Shown here: positions 55,754 through 63,282 of the stretch, one piece after another | How positions within the stretch are numbered: position 1 is the first letter of the stretch | Layout of the letters: every line of letters begins with the position of its first letter | From: an uncultured Chlorobiaceae bacterium | GTDB lineage: Bacteria; Bacteroidota; Chlorobiia; Chlorobiales; Chlorobiaceae | Length of the DNA: 64,000 nt | Reading direction: 5' to 3' | Assembly (NCBI GenBank): GCA_903940125.1 | Contig: CAJAJL010000065.1 | Span: 1 to 64,000, forward strand | Notes under the pieces: generated by a model | Seen by the model: the letters and a program-made list of their open reading frames with translations, nothing else | Told to the model about the DNA's origin: nothing | Database searches by the model: none | Translations under genes and position numbers: made by a program

Positions 55754-56794
55754 ATGAGTAACTCGGATTTTGGCTGTCGAGTAGCGGTGTTTGGTGCAAC
55801 CGGCCTGGTGGGACGCACTATGCTCAAGGTTCTGGAAGAGAGAAATTTTCCTGTAAGCGACATCGTTCCGCTTGCTTCACCCAGAAGTGCCGGTCAGGTT
55901 GTTCGGTTCAAGGGGCGGGAGTATATAATACAGGTTCCATCAAAAGAGGTGTTTCGGGGTGTCGATATAGCGCTTTTTTCAGCAGGTGCTGCTGCCAGTA
56001 AAGAGTGGGCTGCGATTGCTGCAGCGGAAGGTGCCGTTGTTATTGATAATTCGTCTGCATTTCGAATGGATCCTGATGTGCCTCTTGTGGTGCCGGAGGT
56101 TAATCCTGGAGATATTTTTAAAGGAGATGGTACGCCTGAACCTATTATCGCCAATCCAAACTGTTCAACCATTCAGATGGTCGTGGTACTCAAACCTCTT
56201 CATGACCGCTACGGCGTGAAGAGAATTGTGGTGTCCACCTATCAGTCTGTTACAGGGAAAGGGAAGGTTGGACGGGATGCCCTTGAAAGCGAGCTGGCTG
56301 GTGAGAAGCAGGATCAGTTTACCCATTTTCACCAGATAGCCTTCAACGCAGTGCCGCAGATCGATGTGTTCACGGAGAACGGCTATACCAAGGAAGAGAT
56401 GAAGATGGTGAATGAAACCCGAAAGATCATGGGAGATAACTCCTTAAGCATTTCACCTACCACAGTCCGTATTCCTGTCTATGGCGGACATGGAGAGTCA
56501 CTTAATATAGAACTTGAGCGCGATTTTGATATCGACGAAGTGCGCGAGCTTCTCAGTCGTTCACCGGGGATTATCCTTCAGGATGACCCTTCAGCGCGCA
56601 TCTATCCCATGCCGTTGACCTCTTATGAGCGTGATGAGGTTTTTGTAGGAAGGATTCGTCGTGATTACTGGCATCCTCAGACGTTGAACATGTGGATTGT
56701 AGCAGACAATCTCAGAAAAGGTGCTGCAACCAATGCTGTTCAGATTGCCGAGGTTGTCATCGCGAAAAACTTATTGTGCCGTCAGCTCCAGTAA
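55754..56794 (+). CDS. asd: Aspartate-semialdehyde dehydrogenase
   Basis: A 346-residue Asd. NADP-binding GATGLVGRTMLKVLEE starts the chain. The active-site cysteine is in ANPNCSTIQM, with HQIAFNAVPQID and RIPVYGGHGESLNIE later. It makes aspartate semialdehyde for lysine, methionine and threonine. Its stop codon lies in a long palindrome shared with the convergent gene. Confidence 0.95.
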   Translation: MSNSDFGCRVAVFGATGLVGRTMLKVLEERNFPVSDIVPLASPRSAGQVVRFKGREYIIQVPSKEVFRGVDIALFSAGAAASKEWAAIAAAEGAVVIDNSSAFRMDPDVPLVVPEVNPGDIFKGDGTPEPIIANPNCSTIQMVVVLKPLHDRYGVKRIVVSTYQSVTGKGKVGRDALESELAGEKQDQFTHFHQIAFNAVPQIDVFTENGYTKEEMKMVNETRKIMGDNSLSISPTTVRIPVYGGHGESLNIELERDFDIDEVRELLSRSPGIILQDDPSARIYPMPLTSYERDEVFVGRIRRDYWHPQTLNMWIVADNLRKGAATNAVQIAEVVIAKNLLCRQLQ

Positions 56795-57644
56795 GAGCCA
56801 TCAGTGCGGTGCTGATGGCTCTTACTGCTGACGCAGAAGAGATGGAACAGTTTTGCGGGTTGCTTATAGGTATCGATGGAGGTAACCCGAGAGTTTTCAG
56901 GGTAATTGAGGTTTGTTTTCCGATCAGCGCCATCATTATTCTGTCGGCCATTGTGCCAGTAACCTGTACACTTGTTTCGTGGCTGATCGGATTATCTACA
57001 AGTTCCTTTATGGCGAAGTATTCCCTCTCTTCCCTGTTATTGACATGATGGAAGGCGAATTTTTCAATGCGCCCATTTCTTGATATGGTGAGAAGTACAT
57101 AGTTGTTTTCAAGCTCAAGGATAACTTGTGTTTCTCCGGTGAGCTTCGAGAGGTAAAGCATAGGCAGTTGCGGAGAGCCGCTGAACACTATCCGATGATT
57201 ACTTGAAAAGAACTCCGAAACGGTTCTGCACAGTTCTTCAGGATAGAAGAGCAAAAGCTGTCTGTTGTGCAGTCCGGTGAAGGTATGGTCGTTATAGGCC
57301 GTATTGTCACAGCTGTATTTTTCAGGGTTGGTTAAAAAATATCCTGCTTCAATGGTGCAGTATTCCCTGCATTCATCCGGGCTTGCATTGGCAGAAAAGT
57401 AGGCCGGAAGGGGCAGATAGGTTCCCGGTTCAATACAAAGCGCAAGGTCTTCGTTCTGCCACTCTTTAAGGTAACGCTCAAGTTTGTTCAGGATGCGCTT
57501 CCCTTTGCCTGAAGCAATGTCGCCAAGGCCTGATGGAAGTGTTTTACATGCGCTGAGGCTGTATCCGGTGTTTCCAGATGTTTTAAGCCGGACAACAGTG
57601 CATTCTTTTGTGTTGATGGAGCATGCTATCAGGCTTTTACTCAT
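56757..57644 (-). CDS. DUF3822-like protein
   Basis: A 295-residue protein resembling the DUF3822 type, which has an actin-like/ASKHA fold in some relatives. Visible segments are LLFYPEELCRTVSEFFSSN, VILELENNYVLLTISRNGR and EREYFAIKELVDNP. Its function is unknown. Its last about 40 bases overlap the end of asd, and its C-terminus (SSASAVRAISTALMALTG) is encoded by the palindrome at 56779-56833. It follows the ComEA-like gene with a shared base, so the two are coupled. Confidence 0.6.
   Translation of the reverse strand: MSKSLIACSINTKECTVVRLKTSGNTGYSLSACKTLPSGLGDIASGKGKRILNKLERYLKEWQNEDLALCIEPGTYLPLPAYFSANASPDECREYCTIEAGYFLTNPEKYSCDNTAYNDHTFTGLHNRQLLLFYPEELCRTVSEFFSSNHRIVFSGSPQLPMLYLSKLTGETQVILELENNYVLLTISRNGRIEKFAFHHVNNREEREYFAIKELVDNPISHETSVQVTGTMADRIMMALIGKQTSITLKTLGLPPSIPISNPQNCSISSASAVRAISTALMALTGADGTISFSR
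56779..56833. repeat. Long palindrome at the asd/DUF3822 junction
   Basis: CAGTAAGAGCCATCAG (56789-56804) and CTGATGGCTCTTACTG (56812-56827) pair perfectly over a 7-base loop. The pairing extends with CGTCAGC on the left past a 3-base bulge. No T-run is present on either strand. It begins at the asd stop and lies inside the coding sequence of the opposite gene. Confidence 0.8.
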
Positions 57645-58180: not shown

Positions 58181-59332
58181 TTATACAAAAATACGTTTTA
58201 CTCTGGAAGAAACCGAACAAAGTGTTTCGTAGCTGATAGTGCCGGCAATGTCGGCAAGTTCGTCAGCTGAAGGCCCCTCCCATCCAAAAAGAATAGCTCT
58301 GTCTCCTGTTTTGACATCATGTTGTGTGCCGAGGTCCACCATGATCTGGTCCATCGTCACCGTACCTGCCTGATGGTAGGTTTTGCCGTTGATCATAACC
58401 GCAGATCGATTTGACAGTGCCCTGAAATAGCCGTCAGCATATCCGGCCGCGATTGTTGCAATATGCCGTGGCCCTGGTGCAGTCCATGTCCGGTTATAGC
58501 TGACTGTAGTTCCGGCAGGTACCGTTTTTATAAAAATTACTTTTGCCTCAAACTGCATGACTGGTTGTACATCGAGACGGCACGGAGTGATCTTTGCTGG
58601 ATGATAACCGTAGAGCAGAATGCCTGGACGAACCATATCAAGCCATGAGTCCTGCAGCGAAAGGATTGCTCCGCTGTTTGCTGCGTGTTTCAAGACCCTA
58701 CGGTTGGAAGCATGCTCGTATTCTGAAGTAAGTGTTTTAAATAGAGCAAGTTGTTTTTCTGTGAAGCCATTGGTTGATGTGCTGTCGGCAAAGTGGGTAT
58801 AGATACCCTTAAGTTCAAGGGAAGGAGATTGGTCGATCTCTCTGAACATCTCCATCGCTGTTGAAGGGGAAATACCGAGTCGTCCCATACCAGTGTCGAC
58901 TTTGACCTGTATGGAAAGTGTTTTGTCATGCTTTGTGGCAATTTCCTTTGCAGCCTGAAGAGTTGCGGTATCGCAGAGTGACAAGTCAATGCCGTATTTC
59001 ACGAAAAATTCAATATGAGAGGGCAGCGGTGCAGAAAAAGCCAGAATACTTGCAGTTTTTTTAAGTGCGCCGCCGGTTTTCAGTTCAACAGCTTCATGGA
59101 TGTTTGCTACACCAAAATCTTCTATACCAGATGCTTCGAGTGTTTCAGCAACTTTGTGGACATTATGGCCATAAGCATTTGCCTTGACAATCCCCATGAT
59201 ACGTGCTTTTCCACCTATCCTTTCACGGATGAGCCGGGTATTTCTGGTAAGGTGTTCAAGGGAGATAAGGGCTTGAGTCATGGTTTCGGCAGGCATTTCT
59301 CTCGCAGAAAAGCCCGGATTTGGGTTGTCCAT
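58181..59332 (-). CDS. alr: Alanine racemase
   Basis: A 383-residue PLP enzyme. The PLP lysine is in GIVKANAYGHNVHKV near residue 50. The second catalytic residue, Tyr, is in TTVSYNRTW, and VDTGMGRLG and LDMVRPGILLYGYHP match the family. It makes D-alanine for peptidoglycan. The first Met may be at 59332 or a few codons later (MPAETM); both lack a strong ribosome binding site. Confidence 0.93.
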   Translation of the reverse strand: MDNPNPGFSAREMPAETMTQALISLEHLTRNTRLIRERIGGKARIMGIVKANAYGHNVHKVAETLEASGIEDFGVANIHEAVELKTGGALKKTASILAFSAPLPSHIEFFVKYGIDLSLCDTATLQAAKEIATKHDKTLSIQVKVDTGMGRLGISPSTAMEMFREIDQSPSLELKGIYTHFADSTSTNGFTEKQLALFKTLTSEYEHASNRRVLKHAANSGAILSLQDSWLDMVRPGILLYGYHPAKITPCRLDVQPVMQFEAKVIFIKTVPAGTTVSYNRTWTAPGPRHIATIAAGYADGYFRALSNRSAVMINGKTYHQAGTVTMDQIMVDLGTQHDVKTGDRAILFGWEGPSADELADIAGTISYETLCSVSSRVKRIFV

Positions 59333-59533
59333 AAGGTGCTTGCCGTTTTGTGGTTACAGGGGGATGTTTCCCTGGTTCCGGAACTTTCTGTAAAAAAACA
59401 TATTTTGTTTCTGATTATCAAATATTGAATAGTCGCTTATTCCGCCTCTATCGCGAATTGAGCAATTAATGTATATTTTATTTGAGTGTTGTCAGGGCTT
59501 GTTGTCACTTTAACCTACTTTTCAGCTACTATC

Positions 59534-60907
59534 ATGTCGAACCACGATATATTCGGGCTGGCAGCAGAAACACCGCTGGTTCTTGTCAAACAGATGGCCC
59601 GCAACATCCGGCCCAGGGTTATGGCCAAGCTCGAGTATCTGAACCCGGCTTGTTCGCACTATTACCGTGTGGCATCAGCCCTCATTACTGATGCTGAAGA
59701 GCGCAAACTGATTTATCCGGGAATGACCCTTGTTGACTGGACCTGCGGCAACAGCGGTATAGCACTGGCCATGGCAGGTGTCAGACGAGGGTACAAGCTC
59801 CTTTTTGCTGCACCTGATAAAATATCGAAGGAGAAGCAGGAGGTGCTCAGAGCTATTGGTGCGGAACTGGTTATTACACCTTCAGACGCTTTACCTGGAG
59901 AGCCTCGCAGTTGTATGAATGTTGCTGAAAGTCTGGTTAAAAGTATTCCTAATGCCTTTTATGCAGGTATGTACGATAATCCAGTCAGTATAAAGGTTCA
60001 CAGTGAATCTACCGGCAGCGAAATATTTCACCAGACGGAGGGCAAGGTTACCCATGTTTTTGTCCCGATGGTTTCAGGTGCCATGGCTTCCGGTCTTGGC
60101 CGTTTTCTGAAAGAGAGAAATGCCAAAATCAGTATTATAGGCGTTGAATCACAAGGTTCAATATATGCGGGTCTTTTGAACAAGGTAAAGCCTGGCACAC
60201 CGGTTTTTACAGAACTTGAGGAAATAGGTTCCTTGCAGGAATCGGCTTTCTGGGATCCATCGGTTATCGATGATGTTATACAGGTCAGCGATTATGACGC
60301 GTTTAACTGTGGAAGGGAACTCTTGAGGGCAGAAGCTGTATTTGCCGGTGGAGCCTCCGGTGCGGTTATGTCTGCAGCGCTTCAGGCTGGTAAGGAATAT
60401 GGTGAGGATGATTGTGTTGTTGTTGTGATGAATGATTTCGGAGGTTATTATCTCAGCAAAATGTACAGTGATGAATGGATGAGGAAGCGGGGCTTTTACC
60501 GAAAAACGAAATCAGCTCTTGAGCAGATTACCGCAGAGGATATTCTGCAGTTGAAAGTACGCAGGGATCTGATTGTTGCATATCCTGAAAATACCCTTGC
60601 TGAAGTGTTTGAAATGATGAAGCAGAACGATGTTTCCCAGCTTCCGATTGTATCCTATAATGCTCCGATCGGCAGTATCAGCGAAAATAAAATTCTTTCC
60701 ATTCTTATTGAAAACGATGAGGCGATGAACTCAAAGGTTGTCGGGTTCATGGAGCAGCCTTTTTCCGTTTGCCAATTGGATGCTACAATTTCCGAATTAT
60801 CTGACAAATTGCAGCAAAGTGCATCAGGTGTGTTGATAAGTCTGTCAGACGGAAGGCTTCAACTCCTTACTAAATCGGATCTTATTGATGCGTTGACTCA
60901 TAAGTGA
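59534..60907 (+). CDS. Cystathionine beta-synthase-like protein lacking the PLP lysine, with CBS domains
   Basis: About 457 residues from ATG 59534 (MSNHDIFGLAAETPLV). The fold-type II PLP domain is clear: AKLEYLNPACS, CGNSGIALAM, VGVESQGS-like (IIGVESQGS) and GGASGAVMSAALQ. Two CBS domains (RRDLIVAYPENTLAEVFEMM, then PFSVCQLDATISELSDKL) close the chain. In normal enzymes the first motif reads NPGGSVKDR, but here it is NPACSHYYR, so the Schiff-base lysine is Tyr. The glycine-rich phosphate loop, usually GTGGTITG, is VSGAMASG. It is therefore probably not a PLP enzyme. The CBS domains suggest nucleotide sensing. No partner gene is adjacent. Confidence 0.85.
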   Translation: MSNHDIFGLAAETPLVLVKQMARNIRPRVMAKLEYLNPACSHYYRVASALITDAEERKLIYPGMTLVDWTCGNSGIALAMAGVRRGYKLLFAAPDKISKEKQEVLRAIGAELVITPSDALPGEPRSCMNVAESLVKSIPNAFYAGMYDNPVSIKVHSESTGSEIFHQTEGKVTHVFVPMVSGAMASGLGRFLKERNAKISIIGVESQGSIYAGLLNKVKPGTPVFTELEEIGSLQESAFWDPSVIDDVIQVSDYDAFNCGRELLRAEAVFAGGASGAVMSAALQAGKEYGEDDCVVVVMNDFGGYYLSKMYSDEWMRKRGFYRKTKSALEQITAEDILQLKVRRDLIVAYPENTLAEVFEMMKQNDVSQLPIVSYNAPIGSISENKILSILIENDEAMNSKVVGFMEQPFSVCQLDATISELSDKLQQSASGVLISLSDGRLQLLTKSDLIDALTHK

Positions 60908-61057: not shown

Positions 61058-61678
61058 ATGGATAAAACAGAGAAGATCCCGACGATTGATGAGCGGGCTA
61101 ACCACCAGCAATATGATATGAAGGTAGAGTCCAGAAAAAGGCAGTTTATTTTAGATGGTAAGATCAAGGCTTGCTTCTGTGAAGGATGCGGTCAGATTAC
61201 CGACAAGACGTTTGTTGGTGAATGGATTCCGAGTGATAAGCCGAAGGACGATGATTTTTTGACGGCAGTTCCGGTTAAAAAACATAAAGAAGGGAAAAAT
61301 GGCGTCAGTGATGTGCCACCTGCAGCTGAAAACCAGTACTGGATTCGCTGTTCGCAGTGCAATCAGGTTTTTCTGCTTAAGGAGTGGCAGATACAGATTG
61401 ACAGGGAAGTGAGCCCCGAAGAGTTGAAAGCTGAAGATTGTCAGGTATACTCGCCCCATGGTATTTATGCTAAAGGGGATGCTCTCTTTCATAAGGCGCT
61501 TGGTGAGGTTGGAGTGGTCAGGGAAAAACAGGCTACGGGAAGTGGAGCTTTTGTGATTATTGTGGAATTTTGTAAAAGTGGCAGGAAACAGCTTCTTGAA
61601 AATGTACAGCTGAATTCTTCAAAAGAAAAAAATTCGGAGAGCCTTACCGATATTATTAAATTAAAATTAAGACGTTGA
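61058..61678 (+). CDS. Unknown protein with zinc-ribbon and CarD-like C-terminal parts
   Basis: A 206-residue soluble protein. Two CxxC-type pairs, ACFCEGCGQ (residue about 42) and IRCSQCNQVF, could form one zinc ribbon. The C-terminal part GIYAKGDALFHKALGEVGVV followed by VIIVEFCKSGRKQLLENVQL resembles a small SH3/CarD-like beta fold. No named family is recognised. It precedes rpsU on the same strand, 24 bases before the rpsU start. Confidence 0.7.
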   Translation: MDKTEKIPTIDERANHQQYDMKVESRKRQFILDGKIKACFCEGCGQITDKTFVGEWIPSDKPKDDDFLTAVPVKKHKEGKNGVSDVPPAAENQYWIRCSQCNQVFLLKEWQIQIDREVSPEELKAEDCQVYSPHGIYAKGDALFHKALGEVGVVREKQATGSGAFVIIVEFCKSGRKQLLENVQLNSSKEKNSESLTDIIKLKLRR

Positions 61679-61980: not shown

Positions 61981-63282
61981 ATGAGAGTGTTCAAAGGTGA
62001 AGTTACAGCATTGCCGCCAGACAAATCGATCTCCCATCGTGCAGCACTTATAGGTGCGTTATCGGAAGGTACAACGGAGATTACGAATTTTTCCGGTGGA
62101 TTTGATAATCAGTCAACACTCAGCGTGTTGAAGGATGCCGGCATTACGATTCGGCAGCTTGAGGAGGAGGGAACAGACGGCCGTCGTATTCGGAAGGTAG
62201 TTATCGAATCGAAAGGATTATGGAGTTTTCAAGCCCCATCCGATCCGCTGATGTGCAACAATTCAGGCAGTACCATGCGAATGTTTGCCGGTATTCTCGC
62301 AGCTCAGCCATTTACAAGTAAGCTGACAGGCGATAGCTCGCTGATGAAGCGGCCAATGAAAAGGGTTGCTGACCCGTTACGCATGATGGGTGCCTCTATT
62401 GAGCTTTCAGCATCAGGAACCGCTCCCATCCTGATCAATGGTTCTAAAGATCTCAAACCCATCGAGTATCGTCTTCCTGTCCCTTCAGCGCAAGTGAAAT
62501 CACTTGTGGCTTTTGCCGCTCTTCATGCCGATGGTGAAACCAGGATTATTGAAACCGTGCGTTCGCGCGACCATACTGAAGTGATGCTCGGTCTTGAGAC
62601 GGTGGAGCAAGAGGGTGAACGAGTCATAGTGGTACCTGGTAGAAGATGTATTGCAGCAAAACCGTTCTATATTCCTGCTGACCCTTCCGCAGCATGTTTT
62701 ATCGTTGCGCTTGGTCTGCTTGCCCGCGGTTCGGAAATTTTGATCAGGGATGTCTGTCTTAACCCTACAAGAGCCGCATTTCTTGATATTCTTTTAGACG
62801 CCGGAGCTGATATATCAATTGAAAACCAGAGAGTGGTTGGTGGTGAATCTATTGGAGATATTCTTGTTCGAAGCCATGCGGGGCTTGAACCTCTGCTGAT
62901 CAGCGACCCTCAACTGGTTGCCTTTATCATTGATGAAATTCCCATGCTTGCCGTGCTCTCTGCCTTTGCATCCGGTCAGTTTGAACTTCATAACGCAGCC
63001 GAGCTGAGAACCAAGGAGAGTGACCGGATTGATGCTATTGTAGTCAATCTGAAGCGTCTTGGTTTTGATTGCGAGCAGTATCCAGATGGCTTCATCGTCA
63101 AGGGTCGCTTGTTAACACCCTTTAGCACTGTTGTGATTGACAGCTTTGATGATCACAGGATTGCCATGAGCTTTGCCATTGCCGGCAAGGCTACAGGGAC
63201 ACCACTTGATATTTCTGATATCAACGTTGTCGGTGTTTCGTTTCCGAATTTTTTTGAAATGATTGAGAGTCTGGAAGTCTGA
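61981..63282 (+). CDS. aroA: 3-phosphoshikimate 1-carboxyvinyltransferase
   Basis: EPSP synthase of 433 residues. The substrate motifs are [32 protein letters not shown] and [26 protein letters not shown] and DDHRIAMSF are late conserved motifs. It converts shikimate-3-phosphate and PEP to EPSP for aromatic amino acids. It starts 22 bases after the rpsU terminator and is convergent with the hydrolase gene. Confidence 0.97.

Follow-up and report, generated by a model that had tools for sequence, protein, structure and literature searches.

The window analysed here, a stretch of 64,000 nucleotides from an uncultured Chlorobiaceae bacterium, carries a gene for a homologue of cystathionine beta-synthase (CBS) that has a tyrosine in place of the Schiff-base lysine for PLP. 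This raises the question of what such a protein does and why it is kept. The gene occupies positions 59534 to 60907 of the forward strand and encodes 457 amino acids, arranged as a PALP core (residues ~8 to 318), a linker and a C-terminal Bateman module with two CBS motifs (residues ~330 to 457; positions 60521 to 60904, forward strand). Its start codon is the ATG at 59534, which opens the sequence MSNHDIFG kept across orthologues; an in-frame GTG is located upstream at 59486. Pfam matches were obtained for PALP at residues 10 to 299 (E = 2.9e-56) and for CBS at residues 342 to 392 (E = 2e-11). Only the first CBS motif is found by Pfam, and the second is visible in profile alignments to the M. 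tuberculosis and human enzymes. The NCBIfam equivalog TIGR01137 (cysta_beta) scored 337 bits, under its curated cut-off of 510 bits. With a fold-type-II PALP core, a C-terminal Bateman (CBS-pair) module, and orthology with CBS indicated by full-length alignment, synteny and the match of the AF2 model, the ORF was assigned as a full-length CBS homologue. The best PDB match of that model (pLDDT 84; Foldseek) was full-length M. tuberculosis CBS (MtbCbs; 7xnz), and structures of CBS catalytic cores matched it at 2.0–2.6 Å. Full-length superpositions gave an rmsd of 15 Å or more, most likely because the Bateman module of the model sits differently relative to the core.

Inspection of the cofactor site confirmed two observations of the first-pass annotation of this DNA. 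The lysine motif NPxxSxKxR reads NPACSHYYR (residues 37–45; 59642 to 59668, forward strand), with Lys43 replaced by Tyr (codon 59660–59662), and the PLP-phosphate glycine loop GTGGTITG reads VSGAMASG (residues 180–187; 60071 to 60094, forward strand). The lysine is absent from all 72 non-redundant full-length Chlorobiaceae proteins, its position being taken by Tyr in 70, Asp in one and Ser in one. Lysine is present in 25/25 relatives, ten from the sister families f3 and f4 and 15 from other Bacteroidota genomes (f1 denotes the Chlorobiaceae; f2, f3 and f4 are sister families of the same order). In the glycine loop, T184 is changed to Met (68/72) and G183 to Ala (69/72), and Ser274, which contacts the pyridine nitrogen in active CBS (contact list from PMC9232105), is replaced by Ala in 70/72 (60353 to 60355, forward strand). 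Further substitutions are Q146M, R305Y, T74S and D44Y/C, the last affecting the Asp that follows the lysine. T184, S274, G183, Q146 and R305 are each invariant across the 25 lysine-bearing relatives. The same annotation had regarded the fold and the C-terminal CBS pair as intact; this holds for the fold but not for the rest of the active site, given the changes at residues 274, 146, 305, 74 and 44.

A replacement lysine was sought in the core and none was found; lysines were gained only at residues 324, 326, 425 and 457, and a compensating lysine near the lost one was therefore rejected. Residues S41, G182, S181, in most proteins N73, and much of the core are kept. Side chains in the motif blocks have become significantly larger (6 of 5000 random sets), which is suggestive of a former PLP pocket filled by bulkier residues; when only the eight PLP contacts from the literature were considered, the result was not significant (325 of 5000 random sets). 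A pocket-filling figure of 472 cubic angstroms was not relied on, as the residue set behind it had been picked after the changes were seen.

Retention of the lysine in orthologues had been named in advance as a sign of sequencing error or a lineage-specific change. It is retained in the sister families, but within the Chlorobiaceae its loss is fixed. Sister orthologues have the codon AAA, as opposed to TAT or TAC for Tyr in Chlorobiaceae, and this difference of two bases recurs across independent assemblies, so that sequencing error or a change in a single strain was rejected. Pseudogene decay was likewise dismissed, in agreement with the initial view that the gene is not randomly decaying, since no internal stops were present in the full-length Chlorobiaceae orthologues inspected and the median dN/dS of the whole gene was 0.08–0.11 (core, about 0.10–0.13; linker plus Bateman module, 0.04–0.06). 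Orthologues, some of them only as fragments, were detected in 79 of 86 Chlorobiaceae species genomes, and the seven genomes without a match are draft assemblies of 77–97% completeness. Named public orthologue loci belong to Chlorobium, Pelodictyon, Chlorobaculum and Chlorobiaceae MAGs, with Prosthecochloris not among them. Catalytic residues are thus gone from a protein kept under purifying selection, and its assignment as a non-catalytic pseudoenzyme is strongly supported at the level of sequence. A search of the available literature retrieved no described CBS pseudoenzyme and nothing on CBS in green sulfur bacteria.

The origin of the pseudoenzyme was traced by phylogeny and gene order. The tree unites the pseudoenzymes in one clade (support 100/100), whose stem has a length of about 1.0 changes per site, and this clade groups with the sister-family proteins, apart from the Bacteroidota outgroups. 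In the window the gene is flanked upstream by the divergent alanine racemase gene alr (58181 to 59332, reverse strand) and downstream by a gene for a small zinc-ribbon protein (61058 to 61678, forward strand) and by aroA (61981 to 63282, forward strand). The order CBS, zinc-ribbon, aroA is common to the sister-family loci that retain NPGGSIKDRI and GTGGT, which together with the tree argues that the orthologue was altered in place and is not a spare paralogue. The genome of the window encodes six PALP proteins; apart from the pseudoenzyme itself, only two CysK-like proteins match it at E ≤ 1e-20, and as neither match extends to a Bateman module, no second CBS was found in this genome. These comparisons date the loss of the lysine and of most contacts to the cofactor to the ancestor of the Chlorobiaceae sampled, where it happened a single time and at the gene's original locus. 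In genome G087 of family f2 (L167:3943-7682), alr, zinc-ribbon and aroA follow each other with conserved flanks and no CBS between them, and the gene has apparently been cleanly deleted. Three outcomes are thus seen at one locus within one order: an enzyme with intact motifs, a pseudoenzyme and a deletion. The usual source of a pseudoenzyme is a spare paralogue, whereas in the Chlorobiaceae the orthologue itself changed.

The zinc-ribbon protein has two CxxC pairs and a Tudor/KOW-like C-terminal barrel, and its true start is probably Met21 (61118). It occurs throughout the order, and distant relatives of its C-terminal part are found in many Bacteroidota. Searches of Pfam, NCBIfam and PDB sequences gave no match, and a fold search returned weak Tudor/KOW-like matches (model pLDDT 67). 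Functional pairing of this protein with CBS was downgraded: family f2 keeps it where CBS is gone, making it a weak partner candidate, and none of the outgroup loci inspected had a relative of it next to CBS. In G002, a genome of a Chlorobaculum-like genus, the zinc-ribbon gene (L112:6710-7264) has an in-frame stop amid a conserved stretch. Elsewhere in the window, the reverse strand encodes at 56757 to 57644 a 295-amino-acid protein that has no Pfam or NCBIfam match, a conserved position between asd and comEA, and about 35–40% identity between Chlorobium and Chlorobaculum.

The distribution of cysteine biosynthesis genes offers a reason why catalysis could be lost. A CysE-type serine acetyltransferase (called at E ≤ 1e-35) is encoded in 83/86 Chlorobiaceae genomes and in both f2 genomes, but is absent from nine of the ten f3/f4 genomes that keep a lysine-bearing orthologue; the exception, G090, has both CysE and the lysine-bearing CBS. 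In one f4 genus, a cystathionine gamma-lyase-type gene follows the lysine-bearing CBS gene. The sister families would accordingly make cysteine via reverse transsulfuration and the Chlorobiaceae from O-acetylserine and sulfide. The combined pattern across families suggests that the O-acetylserine route probably rendered CBS catalysis dispensable in the Chlorobiaceae; the correlation tracks phylogeny and therefore represents few independent events. A CysK-like gene followed by a second-type serine acetyltransferase gene, scoring about 160 bits to cysE (below the cut-off), was noted at G000:C79:56185-58131, outside the window, and the second type is found near CysK in many Chlorobium genomes.

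Why the protein persists is indicated by the distribution of constraint along its length. The ratio of Bateman to core distances was 2.32 (95% CI 1.96–2.77) in the lysine-bearing outgroups and 1.67 (95% CI 1.30–2.14) in the lysine-bearing f3/f4 enzymes, and dropped in the pseudoenzymes to 0.37 for comparisons inside Chlorobium and 0.44 for those between genera (95% CI 0.25–0.62). In active enzymes, a term used here for sequences with the full set of catalytic motifs, the Bateman module thus changes faster than the core; in the pseudoenzymes it changes more slowly (about 0.4-fold) and is their most conserved part. This inversion implies that selection on the pseudoenzyme acts mainly on the formerly allosteric part. 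Within the module, the counterparts of the S2-site residues Q445, T535 and D538 of human CBS are kept as Q369 (72/72), T446 (68/72) and D449 (72/72), the latter two forming the ribose-binding T-x-x-D pattern. The stacking residue F443 of the human enzyme corresponds to Val in the pseudoenzyme and to Ile or Val in the lysine-bearing relatives as well, and the SAM residue W433 of MtbCbs has no match. The human enzyme no longer binds SAM when it carries F443A or D538A (PMC10995199). Specificity for SAM is therefore not established by the residues retained, and the strong conservation of the module could reflect oligomerisation alone.

Taken together, the former CBS enzyme appears to be a regulator now. 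The first-pass annotation had proposed a non-catalytic regulator; the non-catalytic part is well founded on the family-wide loss of the lysine and PLP contacts under purifying selection, while the regulatory part is indirect and draws on the constraint shift and the retained S2 residues. Our preferred reading, which we consider fairly probable, is that the protein is retained for the sake of its Bateman module, as a scaffold without catalytic activity, and probably senses an adenosyl ligand, either SAM or an adenine nucleotide, acting via protein contact. Its ancestor would have been a working, Bateman-regulated CBS, whose inactivation may have been tolerated because O-acetylserine and sulfide serve as the source of cysteine (CysE plus CysK) and reverse transsulfuration is not needed, as the co-occurrence data suggest. 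The Bateman module might bind SAM or AMP/ADP/ATP at the S2-type site, to judge from its constraint, and binding could shift the conformation or oligomeric state, with the dead PLP-fold dimer serving as a scaffold or output surface that touches a putative partner, most plausibly an enzyme of sulfur or methionine metabolism such as a CysK paralogue. Only tentatively do we extend this to a single-copy, vertically inherited enzyme having been converted at its own locus, in the family ancestor, to a dedicated ligand sensor that informs sulfur or methionine metabolism of SAM or energy status.

Other PLP enzymes have non-catalytic subunits that modulate or stabilise them, and two CysK-like genes are present in the same genome. 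The protein might hence be a structural regulatory subunit without ligand sensing, forming hetero-oligomers with the active fold-II paralogue CysK and modulating or stabilising it, with the Bateman module mainly an oligomerisation interface. We regard this as unlikely: the Bateman module does mediate tetramerisation of MtbCbs (PMC9232105), and plant TSB-like kept allosteric activation of its partner after losing catalysis (PMC12727527), but S2 residues are kept beyond the needs of an interface (Q369 and D449 are invariant), identity to the CysK of its own genome is merely about 33–36%, and pairing with CysK is not known for the sister CBS enzymes.

The core could also have acquired a new activity, its remodelled pocket (Tyr43, Tyr305, Phe302, Met184) running a PLP-independent reaction or binding a new small ligand. 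Several new residues are indeed near-fixed (M184 in 68/72, F302 in 72/72, Y305 in 70/72, E/D230 in 72/72). Yet single species have Asp or Ser instead of Tyr43, wide variation is seen at positions 40, 44, 71, 73 and 180, which is not typical of a catalytic pocket, the larger side chains of the motif blocks suggest filling, and the core is under weaker constraint than the Bateman module; we hold a new enzyme to be improbable. Least credible is a slowly decaying relic or a residual PLP enzyme using non-covalent PLP or another base. PLP might bind without covalent attachment, as G182, S181 and, in most proteins, N73 remain, along with S41 and much of the core. Gone, however, are the Schiff-base lysine, which no other lysine of the core replaces, and most contacts to the phosphate and pyridine; the PLP absorption peak of MtbCbs disappears in the K44A mutant (PMC9232105), and open frames with low dN/dS in dozens of species argue strongly against decay.

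If the sensor reading is true, catalysis was given up and the allosteric module took over as the function. How a regulated enzyme gives rise to a regulator can be tested directly here, in terms of the ligand of the Bateman module and of the target it controls after the catalytic output has gone. In reconstructions of sulfur metabolism in green sulfur bacteria, annotation of the Chlorobiaceae genes as cystathionine beta-synthase should be avoided.

Among known systems, MtbCbs (Rv1077) and human CBS are closest: they are encoded by homologous genes and share with the Chlorobiaceae protein the domain order, the full-length fold (family profile E = 1.3e-112) and the Q/T/D residues of the S2 site. 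Unlike them, it lacks the PLP lysine and most PLP contacts, so that no catalysis is expected, and its constraint has moved from the core to the Bateman module. TSB-like of core eudicots (PMC12727527) resembles it in that a fold-type-II PLP enzyme gave up catalysis of its own and persists in a non-catalytic role, and provides a precedent for conversion of such an enzyme to a non-catalytic activator. TSB-like, however, is a paralogue beside an active TSB and has a known partner, TSA, whereas here the only CBS copy of the genome was converted, and this copy differs further in having a Bateman module. For the proposed action only, AcuB, an energy sensor composed of Bateman and ACT domains (PMC13121692), is a precedent for a non-enzymatic Bateman protein that binds a ligand and acts on a partner enzyme; it differs from the Chlorobiaceae protein in its ACT domain and known adenine-nucleotide binding, and homology is claimed for the Bateman module alone.
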